Source: Thermochromatium tepidum ATCC 43061 (GTDB taxonomy: Bacteria > Pseudomonadota > Gammaproteobacteria > Chromatiales > Chromatiaceae). From it: a stretch of 64,000 nucleotides of DNA. How positions within the stretch are numbered: position 1 is the stretch's first letter; each line of letters opens with the position of its first letter. This document shows positions 10,302 to 35,918 of the stretch, piece by piece. The notes beneath the pieces are model-generated. The model had not been told where the DNA came from and searched no databases. It saw only the letters and a list, made by a program, of their open reading frames with translations. The stretch covers positions 481,501-545,500 of the forward strand of contig NZ_CP039268.1 in the NCBI RefSeq assembly GCF_009664085.1. The letters run 5' to 3'. Position numbers and translations under genes: made by a program.

Positions 10302-10404
10302 CGATCGCTCATTGATCTGAGCCGTTCTATAGACGTTGATTCCAATCCGAGCGGTCGCATATGCGAGGTCTAGAACATCACTCAAGAACGCGGAGCCAGG
10401 AGTC

Positions 10405-11850
<1,446 letters not shown>

Positions 11851-11912: not shown

Positions 11913-11966
11913 GGTTTGAGCCTCTCATGCCTGGTGCCCGTCGAATTGATTGCTGGAGAAGCTGTG

Positions 11967-12719
11967 ATGCTGTCTGTCAAGGGCCTGCGGGCCAACGTGG
12001 GTGATCAAGAGATCCTCAAGGGGCTGGATCTAGAGGTCGGGTCGGGCGAGGTCCATGCCATCATGGGGCCGAACGGCTCGGGCAAGAGCACCCTGTCCCA
12101 CGTCTTGGCGGGACGCGAGGGCTATCGGGTCACCGCCGGATCCGTGACCTTCGTGGGACAGGACCTGCTCGCGCTCGAACCCGAGGAGCGGGCCCGGCTC
12201 GGACTCTTTCTGGCCTTTCAGTACCCGGTCGAGCTGCCGGGCGTCAACAACACCGCCTTCCTCAAGGCCGCGCTCAACAGCCTGCGCAAGGCGCGCGGCG
12301 AGCCCGAACTCGACGCCGTTGCCTTTTTGCGTCTGATCAAGGACAAGCTCAGGGTCCTGCATCTCGACGAATCCCTGCTCAAACGCCCGGTCAATGTCGG
12401 TTTTTCGGGGGGCGAAAAGAAGCGCAACGAGATCTTCCAGATGGCGCTCTTGGAACCCAGGCTTGCCATCCTCGACGAGACCGACTCGGGGCTCGACATC
12501 GACGCCCTGCGCGGGGTGGCCGAGGGCATCAATGCCCTGCGCTCGCCCGAGCGCTCCATGATCCTGGTCACCCACTATCAGCGTCTGCTCGACTACATCC
12601 AGCCGGACTATGTGCACGTCCTGGCGCAGGGTCGCATCATCCGCTCGGGTGGCAAGGAACTGGCGCTGGAGCTGGAAGAGAAGGGCTACGGCTGGATCGA
12701 CGCGGAGCTGGCCGCATGA
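11967..12719 (+). CDS. sufC: Fe-S cluster assembly ATPase SufC
   Basis: A 250-aa ABC-type ATPase that drives conformational change of the SufB-SufD pair during cluster assembly. It has Walker A (GPNGSGKST), the signature FSGGEKKR, and Walker B followed by the SufC-specific LAILDETDSGLD. ATG 11967, preceded by GGAGAA, gives the standard start MLSVKGLRANVG; the longer frame upstream overlaps sufB and is not coding. sufD starts inside its stop codon (ATGA), so the two are coupled. Confidence 0.96.
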   Translation: MLSVKGLRANVGDQEILKGLDLEVGSGEVHAIMGPNGSGKSTLSHVLAGREGYRVTAGSVTFVGQDLLALEPEERARLGLFLAFQYPVELPGVNNTAFLKAALNSLRKARGEPELDAVAFLRLIKDKLRVLHLDESLLKRPVNVGFSGGEKKRNEIFQMALLEPRLAILDETDSGLDIDALRGVAEGINALRSPERSMILVTHYQRLLDYIQPDYVHVLAQGRIIRSGGKELALELEEKGYGWIDAELAA

Positions 12720-14080
12720 ACGCCCCCTTGGCTCAGGGTCTCGAACACTGGTTGCCGGCGCCGGATGCAGGCCCGGACTGGCTCAAGGAGCGTCGCCAGC
12801 AGGCGCGTGCCTGCTTGAGTGCCCAGGCGCTGCCGCATTCCAAACAGGAGGCCTGGCGCTACACCAGCCTCAAGGGTCTGCTCGAACAGCGGTTCCGGGC
12901 CATCGACGCGCCGCCGAGCGCGGTTCGGCCCGAGGACCTCGCGGCGGTGTTGATCCCGGGCCTCGACGCCCATCGCGTCGTGCTGGTCAATGGCCGTTTC
13001 GCCCCCGAGCTCTCGGCCCTGGATGAGCTTCCGGACGGGGCGCGGGTTGGCGGACTGCGCGACTGGCTCGGGCGCGATCCCGAATCCCTGCGCGATCGGC
13101 TCGATGCGGTGCGCGGTGAATCCAACGCCTACTTCGCCCTGCTCAATACCGCCGGACTCGACGATGGTCTGGTGGTATGGCTGGGTGCCGGGGTGCGGCT
13201 TGAGCGCCCGCTCGAACTCATCCAGCTCTCGGTCGGGCTGGATGAGCCGCGCGTCGCCCAGCCGCGCCATCTGGTGCAGCTCGAGGCCGGTGCCCAGGCG
13301 ACCCTGATCGAACGCTATGTCGGCCTGGGCGCCTCACCCTACTGCACCAATGCGGTCATAGAGGTCGCGCTCGGGCGCGCGGCCCGACTCAGACACGAAC
13401 GGTTACAGATGGAGGGGCACAACGCCTTCCATCTCGCTGGTGTTTATGTGGTCCAGGACGCCGACAGCCACTACGCGGGTCTCCACATCGGTCTGGGCGC
13501 CCGCTGGGCGCGCACCGAGCTTAACACCCGTTTTCGGGGCGAGCATGCTGAGGCCGTGTTGCAGGGGCTCTATCTGGCCGGCGATGGTCAGTTGCTCGAC
13601 TACCACCTCGACATCGAGCACGCCGTCCCACACTGTCGCAGCGCGGAGGGCTTCAAGGGGCTGCTCATCGGGCAGGGGCGGGCGGTGTTCGATGGACGGG
13701 TGCTGGTCGCCAAGGGCGCCCAAGGGAGCGATGCGGCCATGTCCAACCGCAATCTGATACTCTCCGAGCAGGCCGAGATCGACACCAAACCCCAGCTCGA
13801 GATCCAGGCCGATGACGTCAGGTGCAGTCATGGCACCACGGTCGGCCAGCTCGAGCCCGAGCTGCTGTTTTATCTGCGCTCGCGCGGCATCGACGCGGCC
13901 CAGGCGCAGCGGATGCTATGTCTCGGCTTTGCGGGTGAGATCATCGACCAGTTGGGGAGCGAGGCCGTGCGTGGGCAGGTGGCCGCGGTGATCGAACAAC
14001 GGCTGGATGAGGGGAGTGGCTCAGGCGCATCCGACGATGGGGCCTTTGAGCCTGCGCCTGATGTTTCGCGGAGGACGTGA
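12716..14080 (+). CDS. sufD: Fe-S cluster assembly protein SufD
   Basis: A 454-aa partner of SufB in the SufBC2D complex. It has an N-terminal helical part with KQEAWRYTSLKGLLEQRF, typical of SufD, then a beta-helix, and the C-terminal family block AEGFKGLLIGQGRAVFDGR followed by CSHGTTVGQLEPELLFYLRS. Start ATG 12716 overlaps the sufC stop by four bases. Roughly the last 35 residues are a polar tail without recognisable conservation. The next gene begins at the stop codon. Confidence 0.95.
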   Translation: MNAPLAQGLEHWLPAPDAGPDWLKERRQQARACLSAQALPHSKQEAWRYTSLKGLLEQRFRAIDAPPSAVRPEDLAAVLIPGLDAHRVVLVNGRFAPELSALDELPDGARVGGLRDWLGRDPESLRDRLDAVRGESNAYFALLNTAGLDDGLVVWLGAGVRLERPLELIQLSVGLDEPRVAQPRHLVQLEAGAQATLIERYVGLGASPYCTNAVIEVALGRAARLRHERLQMEGHNAFHLAGVYVVQDADSHYAGLHIGLGARWARTELNTRFRGEHAEAVLQGLYLAGDGQLLDYHLDIEHAVPHCRSAEGFKGLLIGQGRAVFDGRVLVAKGAQGSDAAMSNRNLILSEQAEIDTKPQLEIQADDVRCSHGTTVGQLEPELLFYLRSRGIDAAQAQRMLCLGFAGEIIDQLGSEAVRGQVAAVIEQRLDEGSGSGASDDGAFEPAPDVSRRT

Positions 14081-14508
14081 TGAACAGACTGGCCCGCTTT
14101 GCCGGTTTCGGCCGAGATCAACAAAGACCGGACGCCGCGGAGAGAGAAGAACGGGCGGCACTGGAGGCCGGAGACCAGGAGGTCCCAGTGGCGCGCCTGG
14201 ACCCCGAGGAACTGCGCGAGCCGATCATCGCCGCGCTGCGCCGCGTCCATGACCCCGAGATCCCGATCAATCTCTATGACCTGGGCCTGATCTATCGCAT
14301 CGACATCGACAACAAGGGCGATGTGGCGATCGAGATGACCCTGACCGCCCCCGGCTGTCCAGTCGCCGGGATGATGCCATTGATGGTCAAGCGCGCCGTG
14401 GAACAGGTCGAGGGTGTCGGGCAGGTCAGGGTTGAACTGGTCTGGGATCCACCCTGGAGCGCCGACAACATGAGCGACGAGGCGCGCTTGCAGCTTGGGT
14501 TGATGTAA
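14080..14508 (+). CDS. sufT: SufT-like MIP18/DUF59-family Fe-S maturation protein
   Basis: A 142-aa protein with an N-terminal charged segment of about 40 residues and a MIP18 (DUF59) domain: HDPEIPINLYDLGLIY and MTLTAPGCPVAGMM, the latter with the conserved cysteine. Members linked to suf operons are auxiliary factors for cluster maturation or transfer. ATG 14080 has GGAGG five bases upstream; an adjacent GTG at 14077 is possible but too close to that site. It closes the operon. The classic partner genes sufS and sufU/sufE, which supply sulfur, are missing, so a desulfurase must come from elsewhere. Confidence 0.88.
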   Translation: MNRLARFAGFGRDQQRPDAAEREERAALEAGDQEVPVARLDPEELREPIIAALRRVHDPEIPINLYDLGLIYRIDIDNKGDVAIEMTLTAPGCPVAGMMPLMVKRAVEQVEGVGQVRVELVWDPPWSADNMSDEARLQLGLM

Positions 14509-31136: not shown

Positions 31137-31913
31137 ATGATAGACCAAATGAACGAGCCGCTGGCGCGAATCCGTTTCGTGCTGGTCGAGACGACCCACA
31201 GCGGCAACATCGGCGCAGTGGCGCGCGCGATGAAGACCATGGGGCTGTCGCGTCTGGAACTGGTTGCACCACGCCAGCGACCCGATGCCGAGGCCCTGGC
31301 GCGCGCCTCCGGGGCCGATGACCTGCTCGAGCGCGCCGGGATCCACCAGACCCTGACCGAGGCACTGGTCGGCTGTCGGCTGGTGATCGGCACCAGCGCG
31401 CGCCTGCGCTCGATCGAGTGGCCATTGCTGGAGCCGCCCGAATGCGCCGCGCGTCTCCTGGCCGAGGCCCAGGAGGGGGAGGTGGCCCTGGTGTTGGGAC
31501 GCGAGAGTTCCGGCCTGACCAACGACGAGCTTGCGCGCTGTCACTTTCTGGCCCATATCCCGACCAATCCCGCGTTCAGCTCGCTCAATCTCGCCGCTGC
31601 CGCCCAGGTATTCGCCTACGAGATCCGGCGCGCGGCCCGTGTCGTGACCGGCGAGCGACTGACCGAGACGCCGCGCGACCTGGCCAGCGCCGAGGCGATG
31701 GAAGGCTTCTACACCCATCTGGCCGACACCCTGATCCAGATCGGCTTCAGCGACCCCGAGCAGTCACGCACGCTCATACGCCGACTGCGTCGTCTCTTCA
31801 ACCGTGCCCGGCCCGATCGGGTCGAGCTCAATATCCTGCGCGGCATCCTCAGCGCCGCCCAGGGACGCAAGACCCCAAACCGCTTCGCCCGTCCGGACGA
31901 TTCGGCGCCATGA
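31137..31913 (+). CDS. trmJ: tRNA (cytidine/uridine-32-2'-O)-methyltransferase TrmJ
   Basis: A 258-aa SPOUT methyltransferase that methylates the ribose of nucleotide 32 in certain tRNAs. The trefoil-knot motifs are [21 protein letters not shown] at the start, [16 protein letters not shown], and [22 protein letters not shown] 31137 or the ATG at 31149 ([12 protein letters not shown]) could be used. It is followed closely by cysE, the usual order trmJ-cysE-iscR in gammaproteobacteria. Confidence 0.94.
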
Positions 31914-31935
31914 ACCCAAGAGGGAGTGGGATCCC

Positions 31936-32733
31936 ATGTTCGATCGCATCCGAGAAGACATCCGCTGTGTCTTCGACCGTGACCCGGCCGCGCGCAACGC
32001 ATTCGAGATCCTCACCACCTATCCGGGTCTGCATGCCATCCTCATCCATCGTCTTGCCCATCGGCTATGGCACTGCGGCCTTAAATGGCCGGCGCGCCTG
32101 CTGTCGAACGTCGCGCGCCTGTTCACCGGCATCGAGATCCATCCGGCGGCCGTGATCGGTCGCCGGCTCTTCATCGATCATGGGATGGGTGTGGTCATCG
32201 GCGAGACCGCCGTCATCGGCGACGACTGTACCCTGTATCATGGGGTCACACTCGGCGGGACGAGCTGGCAGAAGGGTAAGCGTCACCCGACGCTCGGGCG
32301 TGACGTCGTGGTCGGCGCCGGGGCCAAGGTGCTTGGTCCGATCCAGATCGGTGACGGGGCGCGCATCGGTTCGAATGCTGTGGTGGTCAAAGCGGTCCCC
32401 CCGGGGGCCACTGTAGTCGGTGTGCCTGGACGCATCATCGAACCCGATCGTGATGCGACCAGCCGCAGGCGCGCCGATACCGCTAAGCGCATCGGCTTCG
32501 ATGCCTATGGTGCTACGCGCGATGCGCCCGATCCGGTCGCCAATGCAATCAACCGGATGCTCGATCATATCCACCACATAGACCAGCGGCTCGAATCCAT
32601 GTCGTACATCCTGGAGCGGCATGGGCTCATGGTGCACTTCGACCACGACGGCGACATCGACGCGATGGAAATCGAGCCTGCGACCCGGCCCGATATCGCT
32701 CAAGCGGATGACCCGACACAGGCTAGGGGATAA
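31936..32733 (+). CDS. cysE: Serine O-acetyltransferase
   Basis: A 265-aa enzyme that makes O-acetylserine for cysteine synthesis. It shows the left-handed beta-helix hexapeptide repeats and the catalytic region [18 protein letters not shown], then [17 protein letters not shown]. The C-terminal ~70 residues beyond the helix are a long polar tail typical of the isc-linked group. ATG 31936 is preferred because the upstream frame overlaps trmJ. iscR begins 61 bp downstream. Cysteine supply next to an Fe-S locus makes functional sense since cysteine is the sulfur donor. Confidence 0.94.
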
Positions 32734-32794
32734 TTGATCACCATGCTTGGGTAACGTATGATGCCAAGCGTACGTCACACAAGAGAGGGTACCT

Positions 32795-33277
32795 GTGAGA
32801 CTGACGACCAAAGGCCGCTATGCCGTCACCGCGATGCTGGATCTGGCCATCCAGCAGGGGGGGGGTCCGATCGCCCTGGCCGACATCGCCCAGCGGCAGG
32901 GGATCTCCTTGTCCTATCTCGAACAGCTCTTCGCCAGGCTGCGTAAGCACGGATTGGTGACGAGCGTGCGTGGTCCGGGTGGCGGCTACAACCTGGCCCG
33001 ACCCGCAGCCGAGATCTCTGTTGCCGAGGTGATCAGCGCCGTCGACGAGCGTGTGGATACGACCCGCTGTGGCGGCGCACATAATTGTCAGAACAATGGG
33101 CCCTGTCTGACCCATGATCTCTGGTGCGATCTCAGCGACCGCATCCACGATTATCTCAACCAGATCGATCTTCAGACCCTGGTCGATCAGCGCGATGGAT
33201 TGGGTCGGCGTCCGCCGACCACCTGTGCGGCGGTCGACGTCAAACTCGACGTCCAGCGGATCCGCCTCGGCGCCTGA
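32795..33277 (+). CDS. iscR: Fe-S-responsive transcriptional regulator IscR (Rrf2 family)
   Basis: A 160-aa winged-helix regulator that represses or activates Fe-S genes depending on whether it carries a [2Fe-2S] cluster. The start is GTG 32795 behind AGAGAGGG, giving [18 protein letters not shown]. The cluster ligands are all present with standard spacing: three cysteines six residues apart in [17 protein letters not shown], then the histidine. Normally iscS, iscU and iscA follow; here hscB comes next after 37 bp. The intact ligands suggest the regulator still works, perhaps on the suf cluster; that target is inferred. Confidence 0.95.
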
Positions 33278-33314
33278 GATTTTGGGTCTAGATGGTCCGA
33301 CGACGGCACGAGCC

Positions 33315-33857
33315 GTGTTGAACTCACAGAAAAACCATTTCGAGCTCTTCGACCTGCCGGTCGGTTTCATGCTCGACTCCGGCTTGCTGGCCGAACGTTA
33401 TCGCGCCCTGGTGCGCGCGGTTCGGACCGATGTCCTCAGCGATCAGGGAGACGAGACGAACCGCTTGCTGGCGCACATCGACCTGGCCTATCAGACCCTG
33501 ACCGAGCCGCTGGCCCGCGCGGAGTATCTCTTCCGGCTCTATGGCGTGGAGGGCGTGGAGTCTGGCGCTGACGAAGACCCCCCGAGCACCAAGTTCGTCG
33601 AGGAGATCGAATGCCAGGAGGCCCTAATCGCGGCCACCAACCGTTCCGATCCGGGCGCCGCCCTGTCCGAGGTGTTGACCCGTCTGGCTGAGCGCGGCGC
33701 GGCACTCGACAAGGAACTGCACCAACTCTTCGCTGATCCCACGCCAACCAATCTGAACGCTGCGCGCGAGGTCGTGCGTCAGCTCCAGGTCCTCGCCCGC
33801 TGCCGGCGCGAGACCGAAGAGCGACAGGCCAAACTGCTCAGGTCGCGTCCGGACTGA
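33315..33857 (+). CDS. hscB: Fe-S assembly co-chaperone HscB with a degenerate HPD motif
   Basis: A 180-aa J-protein of the ISC system, which normally delivers IscU to the Hsp70 HscA. The family architecture is kept: NHFELFDLPVGFMLD, the J-domain helices, RAEYLFRLYGVEG, and a C-terminal three-helix IscU-binding domain with EEIECQEAL. The catalytic HPD tripeptide, at residues 37-39 of this reading, is RTD. HPD is needed to stimulate the partner ATPase. The start is GTG 33315 or TTG 33318; both are non-ATG. iscS, iscU, iscA, hscA and fdx are all absent from the locus, so this gene looks like a leftover, or has taken another role. Confidence 0.85.
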   Translation: MLNSQKNHFELFDLPVGFMLDSGLLAERYRALVRAVRTDVLSDQGDETNRLLAHIDLAYQTLTEPLARAEYLFRLYGVEGVESGADEDPPSTKFVEEIECQEALIAATNRSDPGAALSEVLTRLAERGAALDKELHQLFADPTPTNLNAAREVVRQLQVLARCRRETEERQAKLLRSRPD

Positions 33858-33884: not shown

Positions 33885-34322
33885 CTAGCACTGTTCCCAG
33901 GGAAGTCCGTGGAAACGCCAACCGCCGCGGCTGCTGCGATGATGTTGCTCGTCGAGCTCGCCCTCGAATCCCTCATCGACGTGGAACACCGACTTGAAGC
34001 CCGCGCGGATCAAGGCCCGCCCGGCCTCCAGTGACCGCTTGCCGCTGCGACAGATGAGGATGATCGGTGCACAGTTCTCGCGCTGCTCGCAGACTGCACC
34101 GCCGAGCACCAGTTTGCCGATCTCGGTGACGAAGTTGGGGTTGACCACCCAGTCGGGCTCGTCGATCCAGGCCACATGGACCGCGCCCTTGGGGTGCCCG
34201 ACGAACAGGAACTCCATGGACGAGCGGATATCGACCAGAATGGCCTTTGGATTGGATTCGATCATCTCGAAGGCCTCGCGGGGCGAGAGTGGGGTTGGCA
34301 GGTCTTCGTTTGTGTTGCTCAT
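33885..34322 (-). CDS. Rhodanese-like sulfurtransferase
   Basis: A 145-aa single-domain rhodanese. Landmarks are LSPREAFEMIESNPKAILVD, DIRSSMEFLFVGHPKGA and the active-site loop CRSGKRS with the persulfide-forming cysteine. The C-terminal segment GFEGELDEQHHRSSRGGWRF is typical of a subgroup in sulfur-oxidising gammaproteobacteria and others. It could transfer sulfane sulfur to acceptors such as TusA or DsrC-type carriers. The gene converges on hscB, with 27 bp between them. Confidence 0.92.
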   Translation of the reverse strand: MSNTNEDLPTPLSPREAFEMIESNPKAILVDIRSSMEFLFVGHPKGAVHVAWIDEPDWVVNPNFVTEIGKLVLGGAVCEQRENCAPIILICRSGKRSLEAGRALIRAGFKSVFHVDEGFEGELDEQHHRSSRGGWRFHGLPWEQC

Positions 34323-34860: not shown

Positions 34861-34907
34861 AAAACTAAACCGCGACGATTGAATTTTGGGTTGTCGCGGT
34901 GGGAGCT

Positions 34908-35918
34908 ATGGCCTTGACTCGCCAAACGAAGCGAGACTCAAACCTGAGGAAGGGGAGCGTGCCAGAGTTCGGACGGGCGCTCAAAGAGCATGGATTGCGG
35001 ATGCTGATGCACGGCCTGGCACGTCTGCCGTTGCCGCTTCTACACCGGCTGGGCGCGGTCTTGGGTTGGGGCGTAGCACGCTGGCCCAATCGACAGAGGC
35101 GCAATGCGCTCATCAACATTGCGCTCTGCCTTCCGGAATTGACGGCGGATGAGCAGCGCCGTCTGCGTGATCGCAACCTCCGAGAGTTCGGCAAGACCTA
35201 TCTGGAGATCGCCTATCTCTGGCTAAGGCCGGTCGATCAGGTGTTGTCGCTGATACGCGAGGTGCGCGGGGCCGAATGGCTCGCACGCCGACCGGGGCAG
35301 GGGCTCATCGTCCTCTCGCCCCATCATGGTGCCTGGGAGCTGGCCGGACTCTATCTGGCGACCCAGGGACGCACGGCCATCTTCTACAAGCCGCAGCGCT
35401 ATCTCGACGACCTGATCCGCGAGTCGCGCGCGCGCACCGGAGCGGATCTGGCGCCGATCACGGCGCGCGGAATCCGGGTGCTGGTCGAGGCGCTGGAGCG
35501 GGGGGATTTCGTTGGCATCCTGCCCGATCAGGAGCCGAAAGCAGACAAGGGAGCGGTCTTTGCGCCCTTCTTCGGGATACCGGCTTTTAGCATGCTGCTG
35601 GTCAACCGGCTGGCACGGCGTACCGGCGCGCCCGTGATCTTTCTGTTCGCCGAGCGGCTGGCCGATGGGAGCGGGTTCGTCATCCACTGTCTGCCGGCCC
35701 CCGAGGGGGTCGACAGCGAGGATGACCAGGTCGCAGCGACGGCGCTCAATTGCGGCATCGAACAGTGCGTGCGCCTCTGTCCCGAGCAGTATCTCTGGCC
35801 CTACAAGCGCTTTCGGTGTCGTCCGGAAGGTATGCCCAAGGTCTACACTGGACCGCTCGACGATGCGCACGCCCTTGAACAGGCCCGTCGCGTGCGCGAG
35901 ACCCTAGCGCGGATGTGA
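34908..35918 (+). CDS. lpxL: Lipid A biosynthesis acyltransferase (LpxL/HtrB family)
   Basis: A 336-aa late acyltransferase that adds a secondary acyl chain to lipid A at the inner membrane. The catalytic H-x4-E motif is HHGAWE at about residues 141-146; other family landmarks are RNLREFGKTYLE and GDFVGILPDQEP, followed by FFGIPAFS. ATG 34908 is preceded by GGGAG, four bases upstream. Its last 15 bases overlap the convergent mutM gene. Whether it acts as LpxL or LpxM cannot be decided from sequence. Confidence 0.9.
   Translation: MALTRQTKRDSNLRKGSVPEFGRALKEHGLRMLMHGLARLPLPLLHRLGAVLGWGVARWPNRQRRNALINIALCLPELTADEQRRLRDRNLREFGKTYLEIAYLWLRPVDQVLSLIREVRGAEWLARRPGQGLIVLSPHHGAWELAGLYLATQGRTAIFYKPQRYLDDLIRESRARTGADLAPITARGIRVLVEALERGDFVGILPDQEPKADKGAVFAPFFGIPAFSMLLVNRLARRTGAPVIFLFAERLADGSGFVIHCLPAPEGVDSEDDQVAATALNCGIEQCVRLCPEQYLWPYKRFRCRPEGMPKVYTGPLDDAHALEQARRVRETLARM

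Follow-up and report, generated by a model that had tools for sequence, protein, structure and literature searches.

An orphan HscB without the HPD motif, kept behind iscR after the apparent loss of the ISC system in Thermochromatium tepidum and related Chromatiaceae

Introduction

Why should a bacterium from which the ISC system of Fe-S cluster assembly appears to have vanished hold on to the co-chaperone of that system, and which part of the co-chaperone does selection preserve once its partners have gone? HscB is described in a review as the protein that brings IscU to HscA, and the same review attributes the HPD tripeptide to all J domains (PMC9596805). The window studied here, a stretch of 64,000 nucleotides of the Thermochromatium tepidum ATCC 43061 genome, encodes an HscB in which this tripeptide reads RTD. 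A first-pass annotation of the window had proposed that the ISC locus is reduced to iscR and hscB, that SUF has replaced ISC, that iscR has been kept as the regulator and that hscB is either drifting or repurposed. Here, we examine this locus in its own genome, across the genus (eight genomes) and across the family (210 genomes), and we weigh the explanations that could account for the persistence of the gene.

Results

The iscR-hscB locus of the window

Only 37 bp separate iscR from hscB, and no isc gene lies 3' of hscB; a rhodanese gene on the opposite strand comes next, and then a lipid A acyltransferase gene (table 1). In these points, and in its reading of RTD at the HPD position, the first-pass annotation was accurate. 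IscR scores 213.3 bits against TIGR02010 (Rrf2 family, IscR; cut-off 207.55) and has all four cluster ligands, C92, C98, C104 and H107 in E. coli numbering; the regulator has thus been kept, as had been claimed. Between positions 32600 and 34000 a single sigma-70-like promoter was found (0.1 expected in shuffles), and when 15 regions preceding iscR were aligned, similar hexamers could be made out by eye in most of them. The same interval holds a weak terminator-like hairpin at the iscR stop, of which 0.5 would be expected by chance. The hscB starts are GTG and, by eye, have no obvious ribosome-binding site. Even with three mismatches allowed, neither of two E. coli-type IscR boxes matched anywhere in the window.

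Table 1. Coordinates, in the window, of the iscR-hscB locus, its flanking genes and the SUF cluster
Feature	Position	Strand	Basis or remark
sufB	10399-11850	+	profile match
sufC	11961-12719	+	profile match
sufD	12716-14080	+	profile match
SUF-associated MIP18-type protein (sufT-like)	14077-14508	+	TIGR02945 above cut-off; long SufT model below its own
cysE (serine O-acetyltransferase; longest frame), upstream anchor of isc locus	31804-32733	+	
Sigma-70-like promoter of iscR, TTGATC-17-TATGAT	32734-32762	+	motif scan
iscR ([2Fe-2S] regulator)	32795-33277	+	GTG start; profile match, ligands present
Orphan hscB without HPD	33315-33857	+	GTG start (alternative TTG 33318); profiles, alignment, fold
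HPD tripeptide position, here R-T-D (residues 37-39)	33423-33431	+	translation, alignment
HscB C-terminal three-helix domain (residues 93-172), better-conserved part in orphans	33591-33830	+	
Rhodanese-domain protein, downstream anchor of isc locus	33885-34322	-	
Lipid A biosynthesis acyltransferase (lpxL-like), downstream anchor	34899-35918	+	

Identity of the HPD-less protein

The HscB of the window is 180 aa long. It matches four NCBIfam HscB models along nearly its full length (best E 1.1e-21), scores below the cut-off of all four (32.6 bits against 46.75 for TIGR00714, and likewise for the three PRK models), and has no Pfam match at E 0.5. It aligns over its full length with 29 HPD-bearing HscBs, and its sequence matches include the HscBs of E. 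coli (1fpo, E 1.8e-10) and Vibrio (4it5, E 9.7e-19). The fold predicted from an 8-row alignment has a mean pLDDT of 81, and the ten PDB entries that resemble it most are without exception HscB, Hsc20 or Jac1, among them structures from Vibrio, E. coli, human and yeast. Together with the locus order and the tree described below, the alignment and the structure match identify the protein as an HscB, both by descent and by its two-domain fold. Among plasmid records, 12 have an HscB match, at 26-33% identity, either under that name or unannotated.

ISC and SUF genes in the genome

The genome that contains the window (G000) is a single contig of 2,958,290 bases, 99.97% complete. A genome-wide profile search found no match to the IscU/NifU_N-domain family, and nothing over the cut-off for either HscA (best score 635 bits against 708.55, which fits DnaK) or the ISC ferredoxin (best 22.9 bits against 132.1); neither of these two cut-offs was exceeded in any of the eight genomes of the genus. 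A second isc operon, which would have overturned the earlier proposal, is ruled out by these IscU, HscA and ferredoxin searches. Four A-type carriers are encoded, none of them near iscR. The only strong class-V aminotransferase (PF00266) match, at 478 bits, is a SufS-SufE fusion (G000:C1:1472464-1474086, L085), a 583-aa frame with SufE in its C-terminal part. The other matches comprise three long ones of 99-183 bits and three partial ones of 20-28 bits; by eye, two of the weaker matches are SerC-like and one resembles another aminotransferase. To judge from these PF00266 scores, IscS also appears to be absent.

The analysis of SUF covered the genome of the window and, for SufE, the whole genus. 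The sufBCD-sufT cluster at 10.4-14.5 kb of the window is confirmed by profile matches, and with sufB, sufC, sufD, SufS and a SufE-type sulfur acceptor the SUF system of this genome is complete. The replacement of ISC by SUF that had been proposed is thus borne out by the genome-wide results. A second SufE lies beside an A-type carrier (806902-807645). Long SufE-bearing frames (578-678 aa) occur in all eight genomes of the genus, the SufS part having been checked in G000. Many relatives encode a second IscR-like protein, about 60-64% identical, at another locus; such second matches came from 16 of the 22 genomes searched.

Distribution of HPD-less HscB in the family

In the genus, the HPD position reads RAD in five genomes, RAE in two and RTD in one, and all eight proteins fall below the HscB cut-off (32.3-41.6 bits against 46.75). 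When 15 other members of the family were compared with the same model, 10 exceeded the cut-off (88.6-125.9 bits), one, lying at a contig end, was matched only in part (45.4), and the remaining four had J-domain matches only. A profile of the eight genus HscBs found matches in 155 of the 210 family genomes. The motif was read in 79 of these 155; 49 HscBs carry HPD (29 + 20) and 30 do not. These 30 HPD-less orphans, 30 of the 210 family genomes, represent eight genera (g60, 10; g1, 8; g55, 4; g67, 3; g36, 2; g33, g48 and g59, 1 each); in every one hscB lies 31-210 bp behind iscR, and in none does HscA exceed its cut-off. The triplets that replace HPD include RTD, RAD, RAE, RIE, RTE, RNE, REE, QRI, HAD, ETP and RPD as well as unrelated ones. 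A loss of HPD common to all eight genomes of the genus and to 30 genomes overall rules out a sequencing error or a strain oddity.

The hscB frame is open in all 30 orphans, although that of G125 ends early, with a TAA inside the profile match. A NifU_N match (E 8.6e-52 or weaker) is present in 24 of the 30 genomes; in the 13 of these for which the frame length is known, the NifU_N-bearing frames are of NifU length (312-381 aa). The six orphan genomes with no such match are G000, G003, G006, G097, G100 and G125. Named members of the HPD-less set include Allochromatium humboldtianum, A. warmingii, A. palmeri, Thiorhodococcus drewsii, Thiobaca trueperi, Thiocapsa roseopersicina, Marichromatium gracile and M. 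bheemlicum. Among the best 26 named HscB loci, nine have HPD and 17 lack it; in these 17, which include Thiocystis violacea and Imhoffiella purpurea, iscR is directly ahead and no isc gene was found.

Two of the 49 HPD-bearing HscBs, those of G161 and G038, lie away from isc genes in a genome without HscA over the cut-off. HscA is also below the cut-off in G039, G068, G073, G118 and G146, where isc genes are present together with a piece of hscA broken by a contig end. The HscB of G038 (L301, 3537-4067) has an intact HPD and stands outside any isc locus; by eye, its neighbors are a LysR-type gene and a phosphoglucomutase-like gene. NifU_N matches in G038 are weak (best E 1.4e-24), and no HscA passes the cut-off there. 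Some ISC-bearing genomes match the orphan-type HscB profile more than once (G159 three times; G160, G163 and G210 twice each).

All HPD-less rows fall on one side of a single branch of the HscB tree (support 100/100, stem 0.48), within which G125 (1.11) and G131 (0.81) have long branches. A SpoT tree of 30 genomes, picked to cover all states, unites 16 HPD-less orphans and four genomes without hscB in one clade (100/99); its sister is genus g63, in which three of the four genomes sampled have ISC. The single HPD-less clade and the syntenic locus rule out horizontal replacement of hscB.

Successive states of one locus

In ISC-bearing relatives, as far as the stretches reach, the order of genes is cysE-iscR-iscS-iscU-hscB-hscA-fdx-iscX-rhodanese-acyltransferase, iscA not having been among the gene queries of this comparison. 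The orphan locus reads cysE-iscR-hscB-rhd-lpxL. Each of its flanking genes was recovered in 28 of the 30 orphans. The exceptions are G003 and G005 for cysE, their stretches being short, G007 and G100 for the rhodanese gene and, within the stretches compared, G070 and G132 for the acyltransferase gene.

A second, recent collapse is seen in G161 (L142, 3156-4305), a Thiodictyon metagenome-assembled genome of 910 contigs. Aligned with G165, to which it is 90-94% identical here, it has a clean gap on either side of hscB: one of about 2.0 kb that has taken iscS and iscU, and another of about 2.7 kb that has taken hscA, fdx and almost the whole of iscX. Between them lie an intact, HPD-bearing hscB, short pieces of the iscS frame and, by eye, a truncated iscA. 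G161 has no NifU_N match and no HscA over the cut-off. In the SpoT tree it stands beside the ISC-bearing G165 (99/96), outside the orphan clade, and these gaps and this position imply that ISC was lost at least twice, with hscB left behind both times. In G165 itself (L151, reverse strand), all that can be seen of iscA by eye, between iscU and hscB, is a short stub interrupted by a stop. As this genome still bears ISC, iscA was probably lost before the rest.

At the other end of the series, four of the 20 sampled clade members (G134, G045, G136 and G194) have iscR without hscB, which indicates that the gene is dispensable. In G134 (L217) the locus is at a pseudogene stage, with 29 aa from the 3' end of hscB left ahead of the rhodanese gene and just behind iscR, and G045 has lost hscB relative to its close relative G040; in G136 and G194 a profile search found no hscB next to iscR. 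A similar hscB tail is visible by eye in G194. The IscR proteins of these four genomes are 82-84% identical to that of the window.

Selection on the retained protein

Over residues 7-172, all 28 pairs of the window's genus give dN/dS of 0.06-0.32, with dS above 1 in many of them, and differences accumulate at third codon positions (for example 20/11/79 at positions 1/2/3 for G001-G007). For the separate domains, nonsynonymous and synonymous changes were counted in within-genus pairs with pS of at most 0.55 and at least three synonymous differences; g12 offered no such pair, and g36 and g67 offered a single one apiece. In five orphan genera dN/dS is 0.04-0.38 for the C-terminal domain (0.38 in g55) and 0.10-0.32 for the J domain without its loop. 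For the HPD loop it rises to 0.69 in g60 and 0.94 in g55 and is 0.06-0.21 in the other three. Three HPD-bearing genera gave 0.11-0.29, 0.07-0.19 and 0.07-0.12 for the C-terminal domain, the J domain without the loop and the loop, respectively. The J-domain scaffold of the orphan and, above all, its C-terminal three-helix domain are thus under purifying selection.

Residue diversity points in the same direction. With genera weighted equally, orphans have a mean entropy of 2.57 bits in the HPD loop, versus 0.96 in HPD-bearing proteins, and of 1.39 versus 1.08 over the whole J domain; for the C-terminal domain the values are 1.03 versus 1.48, the orphan figure being lowered because the HPD-bearing set spans 15 genera against eight. 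G161 was counted with the HPD-bearing rows despite its lack of ISC and is one of the seven g63 rows in the residue comparison. Among 19 orphans of eight genera, 25 residues are invariant. T122, L124, E126, L131, K133, L135, P142 and R165 occur in all 30 orphans and in all seven g63 rows; in the 22 other HPD-bearing rows T122 occurs twice, K133 and R165 once each, E126 never, L124 four times, L131 14 times, L135 seven times and P142 13 times. As T122, E126, K133 and R165 are already present in the ISC-bearing sister g63, they were fixed before ISC was lost, and their persistence may therefore partly reflect shared history.

In E. coli HscB the hot spots of IscU binding are reported to be L92, L96 and F153, and replacement of F153 by alanine to weaken binding more than 20-fold (PMC3040723). 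At the F153 position, phenylalanine is found in all 29 HPD-bearing rows (22 of 22 others and seven of seven g63) and in nine of the 30 orphans, the window having V. The L92 position is L in 27 of the 30 orphans and F in the window, although HMMER instead leaves L92 unpaired, and the L96 position is I, M or L in all 30.

Discussion

That ISC has gone and that HscB has been uncoupled from HscA we regard as almost certain. That the protein was retained for a new or second function is a lesser claim, which we consider probable. The comparison of loci and the missing genes show that everything but hscB was lost from the ISC operon that lay ahead of the rhodanese gene in an ancestor of a Chromatiaceae clade, to which Allochromatium, Thiorhodococcus, Thiocystis, Thiobaca, Marichromatium and Thiocapsa belong, and that SUF, as seen in the window's genome and, for SufE, in its genus, took over as the Fe-S assembly system. 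Without HscA and IscU the J-domain loop was freed, and HPD was replaced in many ways. The retained HscB, presumably made together with IscR from one promoter, would be an Hsp70-independent binding protein whose C-terminal domain holds or presents a client in Fe-S supply with no ATP-driven chaperone step. First among the candidate clients would come a SUF component or an Fe-S recipient protein, a choice of partner that we offer with considerable doubt. Taken as a whole, an HscB uncoupled from its Hsp70 and kept for a binding role of the C-terminal domain is the explanation that we favor, with moderate confidence. Against it stand the loss of the gene in four clade members, the fast evolution of the orphan HscBs, the dN/dS of 0.38 in the C-terminal domain of g55, and GTG starts that seem to lack a ribosome-binding site. 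Against it, too, stands the intact HPD of two HscBs without ISC genes, those of G161 and G038, from which it follows that the loss of HPD was not immediate. As to the alternative of drift or repurposing posed by the first-pass annotation, the evidence favors a maintained body whose contact with Hsp70 has been released; slow erosion keeps some probability, because some relatives have since lost hscB.

The weightiest rival is built on just this erosion: hscB would have been spared by chance, its J function lost first, and the rest would now be decaying lineage by lineage. The loss of the gene in four of the 20 sampled clade members, one with a remnant, the long orphan branches of the HscB tree, the scarcity of phenylalanine at the F153 position and a loop dN/dS near 1 in g55 all suit such a relic, but a relic would hardly be expected to keep its frame open in every orphan (early as it ends in G125), to show low dN/dS outside the loop in all five orphan genera measured, to hold 25 residues invariant across eight genera, or to escape in two collapses, in the later one with a separate deletion on each side of it. 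We judge slow decay to be a real, if unlikely, alternative. The orphan hscB seems to be useful enough for most, though not all, members of the clade.

An improbable reading would make IscR the partner, the co-transcribed HscB binding it (or its apo form) and so tuning the SUF regulon. The gene does sit directly behind iscR in 30 of 30 orphans, only one promoter-like site and a weak terminator-like hairpin were found around the pair, and IscR keeps its cluster ligands; but simple deletion would leave the same adjacency, IscR is equally conserved in the four genomes that lack hscB, and the two E. coli-type boxes are without a match in the window. Far less probable still is continued service to a scaffold, namely the NifU N-domain where it is present, with DnaK in place of HscA. 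Here one may point to the NifU_N matches of 24 orphan genomes, to the persistence of the fold and of much of the IscU-facing helix, and to mitochondrial Hsc20, which is reported to work with a DnaK-type Hsp70 (PMC9596805); however, HPD is reported to be needed for Hsp70 stimulation (PMC8215388), and six of the 30 genomes, the window's included, keep hscB without any NifU_N match, which refutes this as a general explanation. Retention of the DNA rather than the protein, as a leader, terminator or regulatory RNA for iscR, has next to no probability as the main cause, for although the stretch is directly behind iscR in all 30 and the weak hairpin lies at the iscR stop, the concentration of substitutions at third codon positions refutes it.

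If the binding role is accepted, its age can be considered. T122, E126, K133 and R165 are fixed in the ISC-bearing sister, so a second function probably predates the loss of ISC, and this would probably be why hscB was spared. We tentatively raise a broader possibility, for which we claim less than an even chance: that the HscB of the Chromatiaceae acquired, while ISC was still present, an additional and ancient function that needs neither Hsp70 nor IscU. Such a function would have been important enough for the gene to survive both independent collapses, and through it a J-domain co-chaperone would have become a non-J binding protein in an Fe-S supply run by SUF alone. In that case, the HscB of ISC-bearing bacteria may also have an unrecognized role apart from HscA. 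Binding beyond the HscA cycle is not unprecedented, since E. coli HscB is reported to bind IscS weakly as well (PMC5037179) and yeast Jac1 to shield Isu1 from a protease, a precedent for action without Hsp70 (PMC13254874). The first of these precedents is of limited application here, no IscS-like desulfurase having been seen in G000.

The interest of the locus is that a single syntenic position offers a natural series, from the full operon through a fresh two-deletion collapse that retains HPD and the HPD-less orphan of eight genera to a remnant and a clean loss, and that this series reveals what selection preserves of HscB after Hsp70 and IscU have disappeared. The question of other HscB binding partners thereby becomes testable in culturable organisms, purple sulfur bacteria that are used for studies of photosynthesis and sulfur oxidation. 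It also touches on work already done: a study of the T. tepidum Rieske protein considered IscU as a candidate cluster donor (PMC10492824), and IscU is not encoded in the window's genome. In the titles and abstracts of the open PMC literature, we found no HscB that lacks HPD or stands as an orphan beside iscR. A paper on pyrite growth of A. vinosum names IscR (Alvin_1420), and hscB and suf were not found in its main text; in the Thiocapsa bogorovii genome paper no HscB, SUF, Fe-S cluster, IscR or IscU was found.

Among known systems, the nearest is the HscB/Hsc20/Jac1 of ISC itself, to which the orphan is orthologous by locus, alignment and fold, with the same two domains and the same origin in the iscR locus. 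It differs in lacking HPD, in having the F153 hot spot mostly replaced, and in residing in a genome without the IscU family and without HscA or ISC ferredoxin over the cut-off. The Pam16 of mitochondrial import likewise lacks HPD. It is described as a pseudo-J-domain kept for binding (PMC13254874); Pam16, however, pairs with a true J protein, Pam18, whereas in the orphan HscB the stronger constraint lies in the C-terminal domain, which is not a J domain. The single iscS of Mycobacterium tuberculosis (PMC10848736) resembles our case as a lone ISC gene beside a complete SUF system, but the survivor there is a desulfurase and here a co-chaperone without its chaperone. Finally, HscB without a dedicated Hsp70 has been met before: two bacterial genomes with HscB and no HscA are on record (Barriot et al. 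2020, cited in PMC9596805), and hscA is reported from 328 of 330 genomes with hscB (PMC13254874). As given in these sources, such cases count HscA only, whereas the losses described here extend to IscU or its ISC form, to the ISC ferredoxin (as checked in the genus) and to HPD, and this across eight genera.
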